In this document: positions 70 through 46,554 of the stretch, in pieces
Layout of the letters: every line of letters begins with the position of its first letter
Numbering within the stretch: the stretch's first letter is position 1
DNA from: Papaver somniferum
Lineage: Eukaryota > Streptophyta > Magnoliopsida > Ranunculales > Papaveraceae
Direction of reading: 5' to 3'
Assembly: GCF_003573695.1 (NCBI RefSeq)
Contig: NC_039368.1
Location: 12,094,360-12,158,359 of the forward strand
Length of the DNA stretch: 64,000 bases
Program-made: the position numbers and the translations under genes
Notes under the pieces: generated by a model
Database searches by the model: none
The model's input: only the letters and a program-made list of their open reading frames with translations
Told to the model about the DNA's origin: nothing

Positions 70-174
70 TTAAATACTCAGTTGATCTTCTTGCTTAAGT
101 TCTAATATTTTCTTCCAAAATTTTGGGATCAAATGATGTAAGTTCGAGTAAGCAAGCCAGTCATCGACCAGTGT
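70..174 (-). CDS. possible 3'-terminal exon, unrecognised
   Basis: On the minus strand a TTCAG acceptor at 175-179 is followed by 34 codons ending in TAA at 70-72, rich in Leu, Trp and Lys (it contains LVDDWLAYSNLHHLIPKFW). This could be the last exon of a gene whose body has been lost or rearranged. I do not recognise the peptide. The stretch to its right belongs to the locally duplicated 5.6-5.9 kb sequence, so it may be a chance reading frame. Confidence 0.2.
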   Translation of the reverse strand, partial: TLVDDWLAYSNLHHLIPKFWKKILELKQEDQLSI

Positions 175-177
175 CTG

Positions 178-260
178 AAACCATGTCAGTAACAATGGCT
201 GTATGGTGTCTTTCACCAGAATGATTTCCACATTTCCGGTACTAAACAATTGTGTTGTTA
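178..260. repeat. local duplicated segment, copy 1 (continues at 5576)
   Basis: A block containing TTTCACCAGAATGATTTCC and CATTTCCGGTACTAAACAAT recurs at 5825-5900 and, rearranged, at 5585-5680. Copy 1 is interrupted after the TTA at 258-260 by the 261-5572 transposon and resumes at 5576 with TGCAGACGACC. The 5825-5935 copy is uninterrupted (TTGTTATGCAGCTGACC) and so shows the empty site. Confidence 0.8.
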
Positions 261-696
261 GAGCAGTTCCTATGGCAATGGCCAAATCCATTTTTTTGTT
301 GAGCCAGGTGAATGGCCAAACTGGCTTTTCCACTATGGTAAAGCACTGGCTGTTAGATAACTAAGCGCACGAGTTCGAGACAAACGCTGGAGTTTAAAAG
401 AAAAATGCGCGCGTTGAACAGACAAACGCGGGTGCGAAAAGATCAGTCGTGCGCTCAAACAATTCACGCCCACTGCTACTTTTCAATCATTAGCACTACT
501 TTCTTCCATTTCCCGCCCATTAACTTCAATATAGTAATAATAAAAGTTTTAAAAGTATAAGAGTTGTAAGACTTTTATAATATAATAATAAGTTAAAGAA
601 TATAAAAATGAAATGTAGCATGTGAGCTGTAGTAAAAGAAATCTCAGGAAAATGAATTGCACTCAGCGTTTGTGGCATTAACACGGGAGTTTGAAG

Positions 697-859
697 TCTT
701 CACAAATATAGGATCGAGAAGATAATAATTCTTATTATGATGATAATCATAAAATCTAGTTACAGAGCTCTTGAATATATAGAGCACAATATTATGATAA
801 AGCAAAGATCATATATACTAGGAAAGAATATATATTCTTAAATGAGGATAATATTAACA
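697..859 (-). repeat. copia 3' LTR
   Basis: Read on the minus strand the LTR begins TGTTAATATTATCC directly after the polypurine tract and ends GTGAAGA, a non-canonical GA terminus in place of CA that both LTRs share. It is followed by the target duplication at 692-696. Confidence 0.9.
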
Positions 860-870
860 CTCCCCCTCAA
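860..870 (-). promoter_or_regulatory. copia polypurine tract
   Basis: Minus-strand TTGAGGGGGAG lies next to the 3' LTR start, the position and composition of the plus-strand primer in copia elements. Confidence 0.85.
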
Positions 871-3800
871 GTTGGTGCATAGATATCACACATGCCCAAC
901 TTGTACAGAAAACTCAAGTACTTCTTGCTTGACACTCCATGTGTGAGAATATCTGCAAGTTGTTCTTCAGACCGAACCGGTGGCAGCTCAATAATGTTGT
1001 TGTCCACCTTCTCTTTGATGAAGAACCTATCAACCTCCACATGTTTAGTATGATCATGCTGAACAGGATTATGAGCAATATCACGCGCACCTTTGCTATC
1101 ACAATACACAGTAATAGGATCCTCGATAGGAACCCCCAAATACTTAAGGAGAAACTTCAGCCACAAAGTTTCACAAATGCCATCTGCCATACCTCTGAAT
1201 TCAGTCTCTGCACTTGATCGTGTAACAATATTTTGTTTCTTACTTATCCAAGTAACTAAGTTACCTCCCATAAAGGTAAAGTAGCCTGCAGTAGAACGTC
1301 TGCCATCTATTTCTCCTGCATAGTCAGAATCTGTATATGCCACAACCTTTCTATAATCTTCATTTTTAGAGAATAAAATTCATTTTCCAGGAGAAGACTT
1401 CAAATACCTCAAAATACGTAAAACTGCATTCATGTGTTGTTCACCTGGATTGTGCATGAATTTACTAACAACACTGAGTGCATATGAAAGATCTGTCCTT
1501 GTTTGAGATAGATACATCAATCTCCCCACAAGTCTTTGATATCTTCTTTTATCAGCAGGAACTTGATCAGGTTCAATACACAAACTTACCTTTTCTTTTA
1601 AAGGTGTATCGACTGGCTGACATGCCCATTTCTTTTAGCAGATCAAGAACATATTTCCTTTGTGACAAGAAAATGCCTTCACCAGATCGAGAAATTTCAA
1701 TCCCAATGAAGTATTTGAACGAACCAAGATCTTTCATTTGAAATTCCTTTGATAAGTATCTTTGCAAAGATTTCCTGTCCTCTGGATCATTTCCAGTCAC
1801 CACCGTATCATCTATATATATGATAAGAGCAGTAATTTTATCCTTCCTTTTCTTTATGAACAAAGTATGATCAGAATTACTCTGACGATATCCAAAGTTC
1901 CTCATAGATTTGGTGAATCTATCAAACCAGGCCCTTGGAGATTGTTTTAGTCCATACAATGACTTGTTTAGCTTACATACCTTATTACCATGAGATCTTG
2001 GAACTGAAATACCATGTGGGAGCTCCATGTAAACTTCTTCAGTTAATTTACCATGCAAGAAGGCGTTCTTTACATCAAACTGCTGCAAAGGCCAATCCAA
2101 GTTTGCAGCAAGCGATAACAAGACTCGTATTGTATTGATTTTCACTAGTGGAGAATGTATAGTCGATACAGTAAGTTTGGTTGTACCCTTTAGTAACTAA
2201 TCTTGCTTTATAACGTTCAATCTCACCATTTGCCTTGTATTTAATGGTGAAAATCCAACGACACCCCACAATCTTTCTTCCTTCTGGACAATCAACATAA
2301 TCCCAAGTACCATTCTGTAAAAGGGCCCTCATTTCTTCTTCCATAGCTGCTCTCCATTTTGGATCAGCTAATGCTTCCTGCACATTGTTAGGAATAAAAA
2401 CAGTAGATAGTTGATTCACGAATGCCTTATTAGCTTTAGACGAACGATGGTGAGAGACAATTGACTCATAGGGTACTTAACCTTACTAGAGATTTCAGTT
2501 TCATATCTGGGTTTAGGAATACCTCTGTTTACACGTTGTGGAAGTTGTTTGCTTGATTCTTCAAGAACATCCATAGCAGACGATTGGTTTGGTATTTAAT
2601 CTTCTTGAGGTAACGTAGACTCTGGAATCTCTTCTATAATAACTTCATCTTGAATCTCAATACCATGATCCAATATTGTACTTCTTGTTTCTTCTCTTGA
2701 AGAACCTTCATCAACAGATTCTCTGACCATATCATCAGAATTGCTAATAACAGATACATCAATTTCTGATATATCTTCATCATAGTTAAGAGTCTAAATT
2801 TCCTTATGGTACTCCCCCTGAAGTTCAGACTCACATGAAAAATACATGGAATCTTCATGAAAAACAACATCCAAAGTAACAAACATTCTTTTGGTTGGAG
2901 GATAATAGCAATAGTATCCCTTTTTTGTTGCTGCATATCCCACAAATACACACTTAAAAGCTCTAGGAGACAACTTATCACGTTGGTTCTTGTTTAGATG
3001 AACATAAGCTACACAACCAAACACATGAGGTGGCAGATTCGGAACAGTTGGAGCCACAACTGCTTCAGCAAGAGCTTAATGGGGTGTTTGAAACACAATG
3101 GTACTATATGGAACTCGATTTATAAGATATGCTGCAGAAGTAAGTTCCTCACCCCAATACAGCAATGGCATATATGCTTCTATCAATGAAGCACGTACCA
3201 CTTCCATTAAATGACGATTCTTTCTCTCTGCTACTCCATTCTGCTGAGACGTATTAGAGCAAGTAGTTTGATGAATAATTCTGTATCCTTCCAAATAATG
3301 TTGAAGATCAGAATCCATATATTCACCACCATTATCACTACGAAGTACTTGAATATGTTTGTTGTACTGAGTCTTAATCATCTTACGGAACTGTTGAAAC
3401 AAGGCAGTAACTTTACTTTTTTTTTTCATAAGACACGCCCACGTCATCCTAGTGCAATCATCAATAAAAGTAACAAACCATCTTGAACCACCCAGAGTAG
3501 TAGTTTTAGATGGTCCCAAAACATCAGAGTGTATGATCATAAAAGGAACTGGACTTTTATTGAATGATAATGGAAAAGAAGCACGATGGATTTTTTCAAG
3601 TTCACATACTTCACAATGAAAACTAGAAATATCTATTTTTGCAAACAAACTAGGAAATAATTTTTTCAAATAACCAAACGACGCATGTCCCAATCGTCCA
3701 TGCCATAACAAAATTTGAGATTTTTGTCTCTCCCTCTCAGAACCATCAGCAAGAAGAGTTTGACGCAGCTTATCCGAACTACTAGGCACCAAATCCAGAT

Positions 3801-5165
3801 AATATAGCTTCCCACGCTTAACGCCATAACCAATCGTTTGCTTTGTTTTGATGTCCTTAAAAACACAACAGTCGGGCCAAAATATTACTACACAACGTAA
3901 AGTATTAGTTATTTGGGAAACTGATAGGAGATTACAGTCTAATGTAGGAACTACTTAGACAGAATCTAAGTTTAAGGTTTTAGTGAGAGATATTGACCAT
4001 TCACCAGTAATTGGAGCTTGTGGGTCATTTGCAGTAGAGACTGTTTTTTGTAAAGTTGGTTTAAGGGAAGAGATTTGTTTAGATTCACATGTCATATGGT
4101 CTGTGGCACCAGAATCAACTATCCATGAATTATTCGAAACAAGTGAAGAAACATTTAAAACCTTACCATCGTTACCTGCCCTTGCTACTGATGTAGATGT
4201 TACCATGGAATTCTTTCCTTTCTTTGTTGAAGCCATTTGAGCACCAGAATTTTTCTTTGTCTCCTTCTTCCTCTCAAGATGGTGATCCCACCAATCTGGA
4301 TATCCAACCAGCTCGAAACACATGTCAATTGTATGTTCATATTGATTATAGTGTGTACACTTAAGTGATGACTTGTCCACCTCAGTCTTTGAGTATCTCT
4401 GAAAAGACCCTTTTTGATTGTACCGGTTTCGAGTTGCCATAGCAGCAGGTTCAACTTCTTTTGATTCTTTTGCCATCGTTGTACGTCGAATTGATTCACG
4501 ACGAACCAGTGCATAACATGATTCTAATTCAGGAATAGGATCATTTCTCAAGATTTCACCACGGATCTGCTCAAAACTTTCATTTAATCCAGCAAGGAAG
4601 ATATGCACCCTTAGGCGCTGAATTGATTTTCAATAGGCTTCAACATCATTTGGATTCTCCATAACCACCCTGTCACGATGATCCAGCTCTCCAAATATTT
4701 TAGTTAGTTCCCCATAATAAATCGAGAGTGTTCTGCCATTTTGTTTTGCCGAAAACGCTCGTCGATTTAGAGTAAATACCTGCATCTCATCATCTCCATC
4801 ATAAAAGGATTTAGATAATGCATCCCAAATCTCTCGAGCAGTAGGTAACCGAATATATATCTTCATGATTTCTGGTGACATAGACATGAACAACCATCTC
4901 TTGACTTTTTGATTATCTGTGTACCACTTCTCATATCTTGGATCTTCCTCAGTAGGGTTTTTTGTCTTTCCCATAATAAAGGAGCTTTTTTATTTTTCAG
5001 CGATATGCATCTCCATGATTTGTGACCACAAATCATAGTTTGTTTCATCAAGAACAATCCCTGCCTTGAATGTTGCACCTTCAGATTGAACGATAATAGG
5101 AGCATATTTGTTTTCCATCTGCTCTTTTTGTTTTGGTTTATTTTGGTTAGATGATTCTGAATCAC
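867..5165 (-). pseudogene. copia gag-pol, multiply frameshifted
   Basis: From 5' to 3' on the minus strand: gag (about 5165-4200) with a degenerate zinc knuckle in which the second Cys is Tyr (CTHYNQYEHTIDMC); protease with DSGATDHM near 4110; integrase (3792-3076) with an HxxxH-like HGRLGH start, CEVCELEK and the D, D, E positions in HSDVLGP, LRSDNGGEY and NGVAERK; RT (2419-1380) with YIDD at about 1810; RNase H (1343-867) with TDSDYAG and SSAETEF. Frame changes or stops fall near 4625, 3955, 3070, 2430, 2150, 1580 and 1380. It cannot make a complete polyprotein. Product class is certain; lineage is not. Confidence 0.93.
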
Positions 5166-6255: not shown

Positions 6256-8864
6256 AAATGCATTTTTTTCAAGATACTCGACATTTCCAGCCATAAAGAC
6301 AAACGATTGGTAAGTATAAAATTTAATTTTCTTCTCTTTAGTTTATAGTAAAAAATAAATAATTAGAAGTGTCACGATTCTTAATTCGGACATGCAAGAA
6401 TATTTGAGTAGGTCTACTTCGATGGTTTAAGAGGAGGTTGTTTAAATTTTTTTCCGTTTCTAGGGTGCTTGATTTCTGATAACTCGTCCGATTCCGAACT
6501 CGAATCATTTTTCAAACCATTTGACTTGAGAAATCCAACTAGAGTATAACTAGAACGTCTATGCAGATGAGTCAGATTTGCATCACCAGTGCTATAGAGA
6601 TATCCATTACCTTTAATGTATTTTTTTTTTTGTTTGTTTGGTGGTTTCGGTTTTAATCAGTCTGTGCACAATGCATAACAGGAGCTTCCAAAAGAATTTA
6701 CCGACAAGTGCGGGACCGAACTGTCTGACAATGCAATTATTAAGGTTCCCAATGGTGGTATCTGGCATATAGGATTAAGGAATGCTGAAGGTGTAATATT
6801 GTTTCAGAGTGGTTGGCCAGAATTTATGGAGTTTTACTCCATTTGTGTTGGACATGTATTACTTTTCAGATATGATGGGAATTCAGAATTTCAACTTCAT
6901 ATATTTGGCATTGATGCTACTGAGATAGAATATCCATCTCATGCAAACGAAAATGCCAATAATGAAGTCGAAATGACATCAACTCATATGGATGAAGATG
7001 AAGTAGTTTCAATACATTCTGGCGGTACTCAAAGCAATTATGAACCTTCCATGTCAAGCGAATCTTCTTACGATTAAAAAGCCGAACCTGGTAAGTCTTT
7101 GATAATTAAACTTGGGTTTCTTGTCTAGTTACATAAATTTTTCCGTCTGATGGTTTTATTTGATCAAAATGTAGAGAGACAAGAATTTTCCCAAAAAACA
7201 GCAAAACAAAGGACGGTTATACCTACAAGAATTCATACCAAGGCATTCAAGGAAACACTTGAAGCAGCTGAAGCATTTAAGTCTGACAATCCATCATTCA
7301 AGCTCATTCTGCAAGCCTTACACTTTAAAGGAACTGTGGTAAGCATTCGGACACTAAACCATACATTTCTCGTTACGCCTCTTAGTAAGTTAGTTACATT
7401 TGGCTAGTGGCCCTTTGATTCAAGAGCTTGGTATACTGGCCAGGGGTACATAGATTAACCTATGAAATGATTTCGGTAAAAGTTTTCACTTCGAGAATCA
7501 TTTATAATCCCTGATAGGCCTGACTAGCAACTACTAATTTCGTCTTTGTAGACAAATATCTGTGATGTTTTATGGTGCTTCTTGAATTTCTTTCTAATGC
7601 AGAAGGTGCCAATTGCTTTCACAAGCTTATTTTTGAGAAACGTAACACGGATGATGATCACTCTTAGCATTTCAGATGGGAGAACTTGGGAAGTCGGATA
7701 TATAATGAAAAACAGAAAGTACGCTGTCTAAGGGCTGGTGTAGATTCCTTGCAGATAATCATTTGATGGAAGGCGATGTTTGTGTCTTTGAACTAGTCGA
7801 TAGGGAAAAAATCAAGATGAATGTTCAATTTTTCAAACAACAAAAAGCATTTGCTAGGAAGATTAATCCTAAAATAAGATATCATGCTGCGCAATTCAAG
7901 GCAATGCGTGAAGCAGTCAGAAAGTTTACGTCTGAGAATCCGTTCTACAAGGTTATTATGCACGCCTCGTATATACAAACACATATGGTGGTAAGCTTTC
8001 CAATTAAATGATCTCAGTAAATTATGTCAGATATGTGAACCGTTCATCAAGGGATTACTACATTACTTAATCTTTGTTCCAATGCAGAGGGTACCTTTGG
8101 CTTTTGCAACCTCACATTTCACAAACATAACACGGATGGTGATCACTCTTATGGTTTCCGATGGGAGAACCTGGGAACTCCGGTATGTTTCCCGATCACC
8201 AAAGCAAAAAGTGCTATCTCAAGGCTGGCATAAATTTGTTGCAGATAATAATTTGAAGGAAGGCGATGTTTGTGTCTTTGAACTAGTTGATAGAAAAAAT
8301 ATCAAAATGCTTGTTCACATTTTTGGACAACAAAAACCATCCGCCAGAAAGCCTACTCCTAAATCAGGTAAGTATACTGCGGAATTTTACGCAACGCTTG
8401 ACGCAGCCGAAAAGTTTACGTCTCAGAATCCGTTCTTCAAGGTCGCTATGCAAGCCGCACACATAAAAAAAGGAACGATGGTAAGATTTTCGACACGCAG
8501 GGCTAGAGATAAATGAAATGATCTCAGTGATCGAGTTTGGAATCATTTATGGAGAGGGGTTACTCCTAACTACAATTCATCTTCGTTGAAAAATATTTGT
8601 GCATTTTTGATGGTTCATCCTAGTTTCTTTCCAATGCAGACGGTACCTGCGGTTTTTGCAACCCAACATTTGACAGACATAACACGGATGGTGATCACTC
8701 TTAAGGTTTCAGATGAGAAAACCTGGGAAGTCCATTATGTTTCTGGAACACCAACTGAAAAAAGGATATCTCTGGGCTGGCGTGAATTTGTTGCGGATAA
8801 TGGTTTGAAGGAAGGAGATGTTTGCGTCTTTGAACTAGTTGATTTTCGGGAAAAATCCAGATGA
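6256..8864 (+). pseudogene. multi-B3-domain (REM/VRN1-like) gene, disrupted
   Basis: Six exons can be read: 6256-6309, 6682-7090, 7175-7338, 7603-7990, 8088-8480 and 8640-8864, each with GT-AG borders and matching phase. Together they encode four B3 DNA-binding domains; family hallmarks are FFKILDISS then LELPKEF in the first, and repeated RMVITLxVSD, GWxxFVADN and EGDVCVFELVD in the others. B3 REM proteins are nuclear DNA-binding factors, often reproductive. Lesions: TAA at 7075-7077 lies in frame 13 bases before the donor at 7091; exon 4 shifts frame near 7728; exon 6 has lost one A near 8853, replacing the last residues. The first exon has no in-frame ATG. Either a recent pseudogene or one using altered splicing; the family call is firm. 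Confidence 0.82.
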
Positions 8865-9357: not shown

Positions 9358-10068
9358 TCATCTGGCAGTGGCAGGTGTACCGTTGACTCTCGTTTCCAGG
9401 ACCTTGTTGTGAGAGTTTCTGCGCATTGAAGCTACATATGTTGGACTCGCTTTAGGACGGTATTCAGGGAAGAGGAGCCCGGACTTGTAACGCACACCAC
9501 AAGCATTGCAGAGGGTTCCGGGACCCATTGGACCTCCTCTCCATACTGCGGTCTTTGTTACCTCACAATGCATACATTTTTGGTATGCAAGCCCAAGCTG
9601 CTCCTGTTGTTGAAGCGAATTGTTACGGTCTGAGCTATGATTTGGCATACATGGTGGCGGCCTCTTCATTTTTTTCTTCTTCTTCTGTTCTTTTCCATTA
9701 ACATTGGGTGTATATGATGGATGGGATTTTACCAAACACTCTGATGCTGAAGATATATAGGAGGAGTTGGGCATTAGTTGGATTTCGACGTCAATCAAAC
9801 ATGATTCATGAGAGGCTAACTTTGGAGCGGGTTGTTCATAGAAAACTGCTGATCGTGGGCGCTTGCTCCGTGCAGGTGTAGGAACAACAGTGTCAGGACT
9901 GAGAGGCATTGTCTTTCCACCAGAGCAAGAGCTGCTATTCTTAAGGACCGTAGCAGAGTCATTCTTCTCATTGTTGTTCGAGTAGTCTTTGTCCACAGTG
10001 ATGCCTCCAGCTGACAAAGAATCATCAACAAAGGTGGATAACCATTCCAATTCAGCAATTTCATCATC
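9358..10068 (-). CDS. GATA zinc-finger transcription factor exon
   Basis: A 236-residue terminal exon begins after TTCTCAG with [16 protein letters not shown], the acidic segment that precedes the finger in plant class A GATA factors, and ends at TGA 9358-9360. The finger is CX2CX18CX2C (CMHC ... CNAC, about residues 168-193) followed by the plant-typical [20 protein letters not shown] and NSHNKVLE. A Lys-rich stretch ([13 protein letters not shown]) before the finger could be a nuclear signal. The loop has AVWRGG where PQWRxG is usual, so a residue near the DNA contact differs. Class A genes normally have an upstream exon; I found none within 10069-10700 except the phase-compatible exon at 10802-10993. 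Confidence 0.9.
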
Positions 10069-13000
10069 CTGAGAAGTGCAACGGATGAGAAGTGAGTACC
10101 AGAATTAGTTACATGGACCAACTTAGCCTCACTGAATGACTTGCTTCATAATTGATTTGCTACATGTGTACATGCAATTCCAGCCAAGTTAAATTTGGTC
10201 ATCCAGCATCTAATGTTGGAGATCAGATACCATAAGTCAACCCTGGCATCTCAGTGATTGTGTAACAGTCTAATTCCCTAAAATTAACATAAGGAGACTT
10301 CTTAACATGTGTCGTAAATGTGTTAACAAGATCTCACTGACAAGGTCAACAAAGGTGTCTATTTTTCGCTCCTTTTAGTTGAGACAGATCATGTAGGCGG
10401 ATTAGCGGATATGAGCTCACATTAACAGTTCTCATGATTTACTCAGGGTTTTAAGTCTCGGTAAATGGACAAATAGACAATTTGAATATCTAGCGAGGAC
10501 GCCTGATGTACCCCGGGATGCAATCTGTATTAAATAACCAGTGATGTGGGATACTCTGCAGAAGCAAGCTTTAGACAATAAAAAACTGGGCCAATGGAGT
10601 CTCATTTACAAGGTGATCAGAGATTGTAAAGCCATTTATCAGATGAATATGTAGGTGGAACATAACTTAAGACTAACATATTTTGAAGTAAGAATTATTG
10701 CAAATTAAAATTATTCTTGAAATGGATAAAATAATTAGTGAATATCAAGGGCTAAGTGCACATCATGATTTCTGGGACCAAATTCAACCAAAGAAACTCA
10801 CCGGGACAGGGAGTGCACTGGAAAGATATGAGCTGTTATTCAGCATATCATTGCATGGATCAGCCGAAGATTCTGGTGGTGGAATTAGAGGAAACATATC
10901 TTGTACGGCATTGATTTCTACTCCTCCACTGCCTTCAGTATCTCCCTTGCCCCGTTCCTCTACCAGCTCTTCATCATCTTCCTTTGTAACATTCTGCACC
11001 ACACAGGTTTGGTAATATTATTCAAACTCCTCAGTGATGCTCGTTTGAAATCGAAGATTAAATTTAGAAATGGATAAAATAATTAGTGAATATCTAAGGC
11101 TAACTGCATGTCATGATTGTTGGAACCAAATATGATCAAAAAGAAACTCACCAAACCAGGGAGTACACTGGAAAGATCTGAGCTGTTATTCGGCATATCA
11201 TTGCACGGATCAACCAAATATTCTGATGGTGGGATTGAAGGAAACATATCTCCTCTACTACCTTCAATATCTCCCTTGCCCCATTCCTCTATCAGCCCTA
11301 TCGACTTTTCATCATCTTCCCTTGTATCTTCCTGCACCAGACAAGTTTGGTATTGTTCAAACTCCTCAGTGATGGTCGTTTGAAATTGAAGATTAAATTA
11401 CATACACCAATTGCCAAGGACAGAAGAGAGGTAGGAGGATATGATACGACAGATGTAGACATGAGAACCAGTGAAACGGGAGAGTTATGTAGGCTGATTA
11501 CTCACATAAAGGTTTTGATTCCTAATGATATTCTAAAAAGCATACCTCTCTGAATTTTGTATTTTGTTCTGCTATAATGAACATAACTCAGCAGATTTTG
11601 TTTCCAGTTCCGTAGGTGAGAACATCTGATTGCAAGTACCTCGCGAATGTTTTCACATTCAGTTTCCCCAACAGTCCTATCCCAGCATTAGGACAAAATC
11701 ACCTCGAATATCGCCCTTAAAAAATCATAACTTCCTTTTTCGAGCAAAATATGAGAACTTTTGGGTGCATGCAGAATAAGTCGATTTACAAACTTCTTAC
11801 CTCGATTGAAACTTTGTGCGCCTCCTGTAGCTCATGGTTACTCCTGTGCTCTTTGCCAACAAGTATTTGCTTCCGGGTAAGCTCATTATCCAATTCATAA
11901 GCTTTCTCTTCCATTCCATTGTGCTGACCATTCGTATCAATTTGGACCTGAAGCTTGTCCCGCCAACTACTCATGTTCTCCAGTCCTTCATGCTTCCCTT
12001 GCCCAGTGGTTTTCTTTCTTGAAGTCTGTGACACATTGTTTAGCATTCTTAAAACTAGAAGATGAAAGCTTTCGGTGCATGCCGAATAGGTCAATTTATA
12101 AACTTCTTACCTTGATTGAAGCTTTACGCGCTTTCTGTAGATCATATAAACTCCTGTGCTTTTTGCTGACAAGGGTTTTCTTCCGGCTAAGCCCACTATG
12201 CAATTCATAATCTTTCACTGCCACTTCATGGTGCAGACCGTTCGTATCAATTCGGACCTGAACCTTGTCCCGACTACTTACGGTTTCCACTCCTTGATGC
12301 TTCGGCTTCTCTTGCACAGTGGTTATCTTTCTTGAAGCCTGTGACACAGTGTTTAGCATTCTTAAAACTAGAATATGAAAACTTTTCGGTGCACGCAGAA
12401 TAAGACAAACAACCTATAAACTTCTTACCTCAATTGAAACTTTGCGCTCCTCCTGTGGATCATGGTTACACTTGTGCTCTTTGCTAACAAGGGTTTTCTT
12501 CCCGCTAAGCTCACTATCCAATTCATAATCTTTCACTTCCAGTTCACTGTGCAGACCATTCGTATCAATTTGGACCTGAACCTTGTCCCGACCACTCATG
12601 ATTTCCACTCCTCCATGCTTCTCTTGTACAGTGGTTATCTTTTGTGAATCCTGTGTCCCATTTTTCAGCATTCTTAAAACTTGAAGTTGCTTGTTTTTGA
12701 AATCCAATTGCGCATCACGCTTCTCAATTTCCTTAGCCTGCTGTTCAATTTCTTTCCTTTGAGCTTCAAACTCTCTCATCAACCTTTCGTTTTCATCCAT
12801 AGTCCTCTTCATTTTTCTCTTTTCTGAAAATTCAAGATGACCATTGAAGTTAAATCAGGTAATACCTAAATAAAAAAGGTTAACTGAACCAATGTGCACG
12901 CACGGAATAGTAGCTTACCTTCATTATAAGCTTGATTAAGGTGATCTCTCTTCTCCGTTATTCGACTAAGGGATGTCGAATTTTCTTCCAACATTTTTCC

Positions 13001-24757: not shown

Positions 24758-25000
24758 TGATTTTTTGGTTTGCTTTTTTTGTTCCCTGAATCACATTTTC
24801 ATTAATTTGAAAAATTGGAGTTTAAAAAGATACAGCCCAAACTAAACACGAAAATAAAAGCCCACTACATAGGCCTAATAAAAGAAAACATTACAAAGCC
24901 AATTACTTTAACGGAATCTAAAGTACTCCACATCAGGCATCTCTACTCTGATCAAGAAATGTGGCTTCCAATTGTTAACTGCCTTTCTCCTGCTGCCAAG

Positions 25001-25624
25001 TTAGCTCCCCTTTTTTGCAACAGTATCAGCTGAGAAATTAATTTCTCTAAAGCAATGTTGAAAAATGATTGAAGATATTCTGCTTACAGCCTTCTGCCAT
25101 CTCTTCTTTATAAAGCATGGAACCTTCCCTTTAAGAAATCCATCAATAACTGCCTTAGAATCTGAGCTAATGACTATGTTTAGAAGTTTCCATTCACCTG
25201 CCAATTCAGTGGCACATAGCACAGCAAAATTTTCTGTAATATAATTAGTAGTAACACCAATTCCTCCTGATAATGCACCAATCACCTGACACAAGTGATT
25301 CCTAACTACAATACCAAGGCCAGCTGCCCTTGGGTTACCAAAAGATGATCCATCACAGCAAAACATGGTATATCCAATAGGAGGGGGAGACAAGTAACAA
25401 CTTTTGATACATTGAAACTTGTTGGGTCTAATTCCCAAATTAAAGAAATTTATTACCTGGAGATCATAAGATTGATTCCATTTACTACCCTTCATTCTGT
25501 AACCTCCTTCAAACACCAGCTTCTTTATTCTGTTTTTGAATTGGTGTTCATTTGGCTTTATTTCCTCAAAAAAATTCTTATTTTTTTGGAACCATAATTC
25601 TTTTACCACTGAATAGTTATCCAT
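25001..25624 (-). CDS. LINE RNase H domain, open fragment
   Basis: A 207-residue uninterrupted frame ends at TAA 25001-25003. It has the RNase H catalytic positions in FCCDGSSFGN (Asp), ITENFAVL (Glu) and ISSDSKAVID (Asp), and the terminal REINFSADTVAKKG typical of plant LINE RNase H. Upstream, to about 25830, degraded zinc-binding-region coding is visible with stops. It is part of a 5'-truncated LINE, so not an independent gene; the open frame suggests a relatively young insertion. Confidence 0.75.
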   Translation of the reverse strand: MDNYSVVKELWFQKNKNFFEEIKPNEHQFKNRIKKLVFEGGYRMKGSKWNQSYDLQVINFFNLGIRPNKFQCIKSCYLSPPPIGYTMFCCDGSSFGNPRAAGLGIVVRNHLCQVIGALSGGIGVTTNYITENFAVLCATELAGEWKLLNIVISSDSKAVIDGFLKGKVPCFIKKRWQKAVSRISSIIFQHCFREINFSADTVAKKGS

Positions 25625-25866
25625 GCTTCTCTGACAATGGGGCTTTTATTTCTTGCAGAATTCCATATATCTTTAAATGAGCTTGGAAGTTTAGTAGAAA
25701 AAACAGCACATAACCATGTCCAAATGTTTCTACTAAAGGATCATTCCAAATTAGGAATAGAGAATTCATTTCAAAGAAAGGTCTACCTCTTGGAATAATC
25801 TTGTTCCTTGTTTGTTTGTTATTTGATCCATTGTGGTCAATAACGCTCTTGAATTAGGCAAAGGTA

Positions 25867-25953
25867 AGGAAAGAGAGGGATTCGAACCCTCGGTAAACAA
25901 AAGCCTACATAGCAGTTCCAATGCTACGCCTTCAACCACTCGGCCATCTCTCC
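25867..25953 (-). tRNA. trnS-GGA: tRNA-Ser (GGA), organellar type
   Basis: The minus strand folds as a full class II tRNA: acceptor GGAGAGA with TCTTTCC (one G-T pair), D stem GCC/GGC, anticodon stem TAGCA/TGCTA around loop TTGGAAC (anticodon GGA), a long variable arm, and T stem GAGGG/CCCTC around TTCGAAT. Plant nuclear genomes read UCC with an AGA tRNA, while plastids, and many plant mitochondria by transfer, carry trnS-GGA; the sequence closely matches the plastid gene as I know it. All stems are intact. It is embedded in a LINE insertion in nuclear DNA, so it is probably a pseudo-copy. Confidence 0.93.
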
Positions 25954-25982
25954 TACAAAATTTTATGATTTTTTGGTTTGCT

Positions 25983-26588
25983 AAACTATTAGGGAAAATT
26001 GTTTCGGGCAATGGTTTCCTTGGTAACATATCAAAATAAAATTACTTTGTAGTTTCGGTTTTGATATTGGTTATCAAAAATGGTGTGTGGAACCCTTGTG
26101 CTTAACTCTATAGGTTACAAGTCTTTTGAGATTTGCAAGATCCTTTCGTTTTGTCCTTAATTTTTTCGTTTCTTTGTCATTTTGTGACAAAAAGGGGGAT
26201 AAATATATGGAGTAAACAAGTGATACTGGTATTGATTTATATTGATTGGTATCACTAAGGGAAAGGACATTGGTGCTTAAACGTTTATCTAACGAAAGAG
26301 CGAAAGCATAGACTAAGAGGGAGTAGCATATCATATGATACTTGTAGTTATATGGACTACAAAGGAATAACAAAGACGTACGGATTGAAAATATATGGAC
26401 TAAAATATACCTTTAGTGGGAGTATTAGTTTTGTTATTATAATGTCAACAACGTCATTTATGGATTGAATGTATACAGGTTATTGTGCCGTCGAATTCGG
26501 GAATCAAGCGTATGTGCAATGAATTCTTGTAATTTGTTTATCCATATGATGTAAGAGTTTTGTCACTAAAATTTACAAAGGGGGAGAT
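25983..26588 (+). other. end of the family A interior with polypurine tract
   Basis: No coding seen. The region ends AAAGGGGGAGAT (26577-26588), directly before the 3' LTR. Confidence 0.75.
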
Positions 26589-44397: not shown

Positions 44398-45125
44398 GGG
44401 AACCTCAAACAATTGGGTCTTTGAATCCCGACACTATCTTTGTGTGTCCTAGTTGTAAACTAGAGTCGTCCTCTTCCTAAAACCTTTTTAGGGTTTAGTG
44501 ACTAAAAAGACTTCATATGGATTCGTGAAGCCAGGTCTATCTATCTTTTATCTTGATAGTTCGAGTATCATGATCTTGATTGTTTTTTGAGATTACTCCA
44601 TCAATTAAGATAGATAGAAGTCACAAAGTTCTCTTCGTCTCAGACTTTGTTGATTCCACAAGTTTAATAATTTTGAGGTGTAATAATCTAAGCTGCTCTT
44701 TGGGAAGCATAAGTCCAGATTTTGAGGTTACCTAGACTTTATCTATTGCAATCGATTTCCAGTCTCACCTTGATCTACGATCAAAAAGGAAATCACACAT
44801 GTAGGCTTATCTGCGAGAGGCAGATTGGTTTAAAGTCTTCAATTGAGTTGAATCAACTCTTAGGTTGTAAAGGACGTCATTTAAGGGAATCAATTGCGCG
44901 GAGTCCTGTTGGGATTCAATAGGCGTAAGGAACAAAACTGTAACCGAATTGATGTGAGGGTTTAATTCGGTGTCAACTACATTCTAGTCCGAAGTTAATT
45001 GGTCGTAGGCTAGTGTCTATAACGGTTTAATACAGTTTGGTGTTCAATCTGGATTAGGTCCCGGGATTTTTCTACATTTACGGTTCCCTCGTTATCAAAA
45101 TTTATAGTATCTGTGTTATTTATTT

Positions 45126-46554
45126 GGGTTATTTGGTTTTTGGTACTCAGGTTTTGACCCAAACCTGGGTTTGGTCTAACATTTGTCCGGCCTTTGCGTT
45201 TGGTCTAAAGACCAAAATTGACCAGCGTTGACTCTGTCAAGTGATGATGTGTTTCACTTTTGACTTAATTATTTTCTTTTATGGACCCTCGAATTATAAA
45301 TTATTTTCTTATTACACCCCCAACTATTTTTATCAACAGATCTGGCCATTGGATTGAACGGATTCGGTGAAACCATTCACCTTCATCTTCTTCTGATTCT
45401 AGGTCTTCCAAAGTAAGTGCAGAAGATCCTTAACAATAAAAGTACTTGATACAGAGAATTAGGGATGGAATAGGATTAGTTTTCAACGAAATGGAGAGAT
45501 GAAGAACTTTATAGCATCTCCTCCATCAAAATCTCCTCAAGTTTCATTTTCCTCCATCGATTTATCAACCATCAGCGATAGAATCAGGGTTTTCTGATTG
45601 AAATAAGGGTTAACAGTTTCGGAATTTGAGGTTTATTATCTGTTCATGATGTTAACAATTGAATTTTTTTTGGGAATTTGGGGTTTGTTTTCTGAATACG
45701 ATGGATTTTGGGGTTTGAGTTGTTTAAACTCTAGAAGAAGATGCAGACATAAGATGGGTCTATGGAGATGAATATTCTGATATTGTCTGATTCGTGAGAT
45801 TGTGTTGGATTTGATGGAGATGATGCTGCAGAGAAGAGAGTATTTTGAAGGTTTCAATGAATCTGTGGTGAAAAACAAGATGTAGTTTATGCGAAGTCTG
45901 AGAAGGGTTTTATGTTGAATTGTTGGTGAAGAAGAACTTTTTGAATGGGTTTGATCGATTCATGGAGAGTTAGGGTATGGGATTGAGGAGATGAAAATCA
46001 AGGGTGTTGTATTTGGCTGTGATTAGAAGAAGATAAAGAGTTAATGCTGCTAAAGAATGGATTTAGATGTATGATAGGACAGGGATTTCAGGTTCAGTTC
46101 AAGAAGGAGATGCCGTTGGTGCTCCAATTGGTTCTTGTGATGCTAGTCTATACTGGATGGTTGTGTTTGAGGCTCCGAGAAGATATTGTTTATTGATGTT
46201 TGAATTTCACTTCATGTGATTCAGCTATGTTATTTTCTGAGAAGATTGCGGGGTGTTATCGGTTGCCATTGTATGAGATTTGAGTACTGTAGTTGATGAT
46301 GATTGCCAAGAACAGCAGCAGAAAATAGAGAGAAGGAGAAGAGAAAATAACTCATTTTTGGGGGCCCTGTTAGTGAGTACACAATTATTCGAGGGGTCCA
46401 TTAAAAATTAATTAAGTCAAAAGTTAAACACATCATCACTTGACGAAGTCAACGTGGGTCAATGTGGGTCTTTAGACCAAACGCAAAGGCCGAATAAATG
46501 TTAGACCAAACTCAGGTTTGGGTCAAAACCTAAGTACCAAAAACCAAATAACCC
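45126..46554. mobile_element. Mutator-like element (MULE), non-autonomous
   Basis: Terminal inverted repeats of about 180 bases start GGGTTATTTGGTTTTTGGTA at the left and match inward from 46554 with few differences. The 9-bp flanks TATTTATTT (45117-45125) and TATTTCTTT (46555-46563) agree at eight positions, the Mutator duplication length. It interrupts a family B LTR. The 1.05-kb interior has no transposase; it could be captured sequence, but I recognise no gene in it. Confidence 0.88.

Follow-up and report, generated by a model that had tools for sequence, protein, structure and literature searches.

In the analysed window (64,000 nt of Papaver somniferum, NC_039368.1:12,094,360-12,158,359; positions are counted from the window start), a 5′-truncated LINE and a plastid-derived segment containing a complete trnS-GGA lie on the same strand and are enclosed together by one 17-bp target-site duplication (TSD). 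This single TSD around both parts, and paralogous sites that are empty, argue for joint arrival as one target-primed insertion; it is very probable that plastid piece and LINE were inserted in one event, whatever the route by which the former entered.

The genome searched was a 2.72-Gb assembly of 34,283 contigs, plastid included. On contig C34283 (152,931 bases), which was taken as the plastid genome, a convergent rps4-like reading frame (44583-45206) comes after trnS-GGA. Elsewhere, the window contains a Copia-type retrotransposon in several frames (867-4629, minus strand; RVT_2, 1576-2196; integrase core and GAG-pre-integrase, 3079-3954). Reading frames at 7995-8516 (plus strand) and 9358-10104 (minus strand), in which a B3 DNA-binding domain and a GATA zinc finger were identified, are likely host transcription-factor genes.

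The truncated LINE and its insertion site

The LINE (24781-25748, minus strand) was delimited from Pfam, protein matches, genomic relatives and its 3′ end, and comprises a degenerate stretch upstream of RNase H, the RNase H domain (RVT_3; 25001-25645, Pfam E 7.2e-11) and the 3′ UTR. The 3′ end is typical of the family (..TGATTCAGGG plus A-tail), with ..GATTCAGGG and A6-7 as in the relatives; the tail itself (24775-24780, minus strand) has 6 A, or 7 with the first TSD base. Thirty-nine proteins match the LINE frame, 35 of them from P. somniferum, one (P0001) being the window’s own. In the genome, 39 other places were scored (40 scored of 505 candidates, many of them partial), the best at 86%. 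On the other side the LINE ends near 25750, a point reached by the alignments of 11 of 24 copies; several copies run on there in LINE sequence, and the element is truncated at its 5′ end. A first-pass annotation, made from the sequence alone, had described a 5′-truncated LINE on the same strand as a tRNA and with an A-tail at the far end, and the RVT_3 domain, 3′ end and A6-7 bear this out. The LINE starts at about 25748 and does not adjoin the tRNA.

An exact 17-bp direct repeat around tRNA and LINE had likewise been reported, correctly: the word TGATTTTTTGGTTTGCT lies on the 3′ (A-tail) side of the LINE at 24758-24774 and on the plastid (5′) side at 25966-25982, with 17/17 bases identical, 25966-25970 being also plastid sequence. 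The length of this repeat alone is no proof of a TSD, since the window has 822 pairs of identical 17-mers 101-4999 apart (unsorted pairs, presumably from longer repeats). Words longer than 12 (15-17) were common to two 60-nt stretches 1208 apart in 5/5000 random placements; by arithmetic, ~3.5 placements would be expected to strike the 24758/25966 repeat itself. The argument rests instead on the presence of the word at both ends of the composite and on the empty site. The host of the insertion is a high-copy poppy repeat (query 25983-26500 gave 5576 candidates, 40 of them scored), with 92-93% identity in the 39 other copies scored. Five of these 39 were fetched, and all five run across the site with the word present once and no plastid or LINE sequence; the word is exact in one (17/17 bases) and matches at 14-16 of 16 aligned bases in the other four. 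The left flank of the insertion likewise lies within a very high-copy poppy repeat.

A TSD with an empty site, the family 3′ end with its A-tail, and 5′ truncation are the marks of target-primed reverse transcription, and all are present here. On the plus strand the site reads TGCT/AAAC, which matches the LINE endonuclease nick consensus (TTTT/AA-like) only in part. L1-like retroposition in dicots is supported by previous work (PMC4838847).

The plastid segment and its edges

The segment between LINE and target (25749-25965, minus strand) corresponds in the plastid alignment to C34283:44182-44398, comprising a 12-base 5′ flank, trnS-GGA and 118 bases of the trnS-rps4 spacer. The tRNA gene (25867-25953, minus strand) is the same as that of the plastid and was the single tRNA identified by ARAGORN (25866-25954) and Rfam (25867-25953, 58.5 bits), in agreement with the complete tRNA-Ser(GGA) read from the sequence earlier. 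Identity to the plastid contig is 220/222 over 25749-25970, unbroken from 25970 down to 25749 save at 25803 and 25801; Blast aligned 25746-25970 with 222/225 identical. The 118 bases between LINE and tRNA (25749-25866) are trnS-rps4 spacer, stopping short of rps4. The tRNA is thus flanked in both directions by intergenic plastid sequence, at 25749-25866 and at 25954-25965. The segment ends 12-17 bases before the tRNA and 118 bases after it, within spacer, and neither edge is a tRNA end. In its near-identity to plastid DNA, intergenic sequence included, the segment resembles a nuclear plastid insertion (NUPT); it is not a stand-alone insertion at a chromosomal break, one edge abutting the LINE and the other the LINE target.

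These results alter the earlier description in several respects. The chimeric LINE insertion stands, with an organellar sense piece at its 5′ end inside one TSD, but the direct fusion of tRNA to LINE does not, 118 spacer bases lying between them and the plastid contig being identical through the spacer. An organellar source agrees with the plastid origin of the piece (220/222), whereas copying of only a small tRNA, or of a precursor ending at the tRNA, is unsupported. Plastid identity extending well past the tRNA, to 25840 or beyond, had been named as grounds against the earlier reading; in the alignment it reached 25749. The 12-base leader, read as a sign of an unprocessed precursor, is simply plastid sequence, and identity also runs on past the other end of the tRNA.

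Three further readings of this region were discarded. Weak similarity to LINE coding sequence seen by eye at 25770-25866 was rejected, as this stretch is plastid spacer; in a frameshift-tolerant profile alignment, anchored extension halted at 25769 with a score reached by 32/300 shuffles and 48/300 window segments, and the local score of 26 (control mean 30) was reached by 145/200 segments. The T after the acceptor stem does not mark a junction, since the poppy plastid itself has T; the base printed at this position is G for Datura, Aconitum (two papers), Prangos and Sesamum, and A for Ipomoea. A transcription start at -12, based on a paper on a spinach serine tRNA, was also dropped, as PMC3276175 cites that paper for trnS.1, beside psbK/psbI, and not for trnS-GGA.

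Both edges of the segment show microhomology. At the LINE/plastid junction (25746-25750, minus strand) it is imperfect: the plastid has AATTGGGG, the nearest LINE relatives TTTGGGAATG and the window AATTTGGAATG, with TTGGG in common apart from one change. At the 5′ edge, AATCA (25966-25970, minus strand) belongs both to the end of the target and to plastid sequence, giving 5 bp of microhomology. For this base composition, the chance of five consecutive matches at a given edge is ~0.0015. Microhomology is also possible at LINE 5′ junctions and at reverse transcriptase switches.

A query across the LINE/plastid junction (25690-25830) gave 34 matches in the genome, and only the window itself matched at full length; 26 of the remainder match the plastid side only (one of these being the plastid contig) and seven the LINE side only. 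The suggested start of a SINE is thus not borne out: several copies with tRNA head and LINE tail would be expected, and the junction was found in full once, at the window (1/34 matches). As far as the scored matches reach, the tRNA does not belong to the LINE: no scored LINE place (0/39 others, of 505 candidates) overlaps any of the 40 places listed for the plastid tRNA segment, consistent with the earlier view that the tRNA is no fixed part of the LINE 5′ UTR.

Besides the plastid contig, 25 places matched the plastid side of this query, and 18 of them were cut out. Every one of the 18 has a plastid stretch of 437 bases or more, and often the full 3-kb locus is plastid (one place is a 1-kb unplaced contig); the plastid piece in the window, with LINE on one side and target on the other, is 222 bases. 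It is not the only short plastid fragment, since the seven remaining places match over 35-85 bases only (two with 85-base and five with 35-55-base matches). The five shortest (C6:83246293, C12173:3222495, C5:206966758, C5:122217139 and C3:136718604; 89-98%) match the same end of the plastid piece and are possibly a dispersed repeat carrying a plastid fragment. One of the NUPTs (C1896:1003080-1003209 and 1003623-1003724) is rearranged internally, so that its trnS region occurs more than once. Base 25803 of the window is matched neither by the plastid nor by any of the 18 distinct places cut out, while 25801 is common to five of the 18 (L014, L015, L026, L028 and L031). Because the patterns at 25801 and 25903 conflict, a plastid ancestor, a NUPT donor and repeated change are indistinguishable.

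A search for a plastid donor in viral contigs gave no matches, and in contigs of other genomes none in one search and one in another; plasmids (13 records) and phages (7 records), of bacterial sources, matched the tRNA part only. A GTDB contig labelled as uncultured Clostridia (CAMUZI010000007.1, 1230-1373) has 86% identity to the plastid piece over 144 bases of tRNA and spacer. Given this identity across both, the metagenome-assembled contig is probably plastid contamination.

Route of entry of the plastid segment

The explanation we favour, at about an even chance of being correct, is that a fragment of plastid or NUPT DNA was captured as filler while the LINE 5′ end was being joined. The LINE inserted into the high-copy poppy repeat by target-primed reverse transcription, which, as the 3′ end, truncation, TSD and empty site show, began at the A-tail and halted within LINE coding sequence. 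A plastid fragment of 217-222 bases would have been set between LINE cDNA and target ahead of 5′-end joining; this fragment may have been DNA, from plastid or NUPT, captured by microhomology-guided end joining at both edges. The intergenic content and the ~5-bp microhomology at both edges (one imperfect) make us lean to DNA capture, which is also supported by the many copies of the plastid region held in the nucleus (25 non-plastid places matched). Organellar filler in plants is joined via 1-7 bp of microhomology according to a review (PMC7037861). In primate numts imperfect microhomology is documented too, but both-sided microhomology is uncommon there (only 8/71 two-sided cases; PMC2567098), which counts against DNA capture, as does the sense orientation of the piece, which such capture yields half the time.

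That orientation leans instead to RNA. Template switching, in which the LINE reverse transcriptase would have moved during the same insertion from LINE RNA to a plastid-derived RNA, with the end of the cDNA then being attached to the target, is a tenable second choice to which we give roughly one part in three of our belief. It would account for a foreign piece that is sense to the LINE and inside one TSD; U6/L1 chimeras are 98.3% sense (PMC13174262), and LINE chimeras of like layout are described in mammals (PMC13174262) and a fungus (PMC2104539). In Arabidopsis, a table row in PMC3276175 gives a plastid ncRNA at the rps4 3′ end (45294-45358, +, RT-PCR +). The RNA copied in poppy would have been transcribed either from trnS on into the spacer, in the direction of rps4, or from a NUPT. 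The Arabidopsis ncRNA (45294-45358) is presumably on the trnS-GGA strand, going by its row and by gene order. Against such a switch, the segment ends at no tRNA end, with 118 spacer bases following the gene; plastid RNA would have to reach the LINE machinery; and DNA joining would be just as likely to leave microhomology at both edges. The finding was picked for its tRNA, so that the presence of the gene is weak evidence for either route.

It is unlikely that the plastid piece came by 5′ transduction, from a parental NUPT adjoining a truncated LINE, with a single transcript of both being retroposed. This would give one TSD and the same order of parts, and NUPTs amplified beside retrotransposons have been described (PMC7037861). 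However, the full junction is present only at the window (1/34 matches) and no parental fused locus was found among the genome matches listed, although a parent could be lost or unassembled.

Still less probable, and very unlikely overall, are two events: insertion of the LINE with its TSD, and later insertion of plastid DNA that happened on the LINE 5′ boundary. The ages of the two parts bear on this. The plastid part, over 222 bases, shows a single change absent from all 18 places (two if 25801 is counted), whereas in the LINE 19 of 668 filtered sites carry private substitutions (14/663, 16/665 and 23/672 in the three nearest copies) and there are eight private indel events relative to these copies, four of them deletions; the terminal branch of the window LINE is 0.050. 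The substitution difference (19/668 vs 1/222; Fisher p 0.036, or p 0.13 with two plastid changes) is weak and does not separate one event from two, as LINE changes that predate insertion contribute to it. The fewer private changes in the plastid part and the LINE indels would fit later plastid arrival too, but the boundary must then have been struck within ~5 of roughly 1000 positions, and the TSD is still 17/17. Copying of a mature or precursor tRNA-Ser alone and its direct fusion to the LINE, on the way to forming a SINE, would suit a complete, foldable sense tRNA inside one TSD but is scarcely credible, given plastid identity for 118 bases beyond the tRNA and through the leader, and a junction found once.

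Comparison with known chimeras and significance

Mammalian LINE-1 chimeras with U6, U3, 5S or tRNA (PMC13174262) resemble the poppy composite in being bipartite, with a foreign 5′ piece on a truncated LINE, TSDs and an A-tail, and the U6 chimeras also in sense orientation. The mammalian pieces are described as nuclear RNAs, those from tRNA (n=21) being mostly halves and antisense, whereas the poppy piece is a plastid segment, with a whole tRNA and intergenic spacer, in a plant. The MGL chimeric retrogenes of Magnaporthe grisea (PMC2104539) similarly have a foreign 5′ piece joined to a LINE 3′ part, with direct repeats around the tripartite element; they are described as recurrent, involving expressed RNAs and having a motif at the switch site, while poppy has one case, of organellar origin. 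Break-repair filler from NUPTs or numts (PMC7037861, PMC2567098) is alike in its edge microhomology of 1-7 bp, sometimes imperfect, but the poppy segment has one edge on a LINE cDNA end and lies wholly inside a LINE TSD. No description of a LINE-plastid chimera was found in the literature searched at the level of titles and abstract beginnings.

The composite is one fossil insertion and not a new mobile element. Being one case, it offers a clear illustration but does not amount to a new system, and sits where LINE chimeras and NUPT patching meet. It shows organelle sequence riding into chromosomes, and so joins LINE insertion and organelle-to-nucleus DNA transfer, which are usually studied apart. 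Tentatively, and as the lesser of the two main possibilities, a plant LINE reverse transcriptase may have copied plastid-derived RNA in mid-insertion, in which case plastid sequence would have entered the chromosome via RNA and under LINE control. If such patches recur, RNA copying and DNA capture could be told apart by the proportions of plastid pieces that are sense or antisense and that are transcribed or untranscribed, and the places where LINEs insert would form a route of plastid sequence into the nucleus that can be measured.
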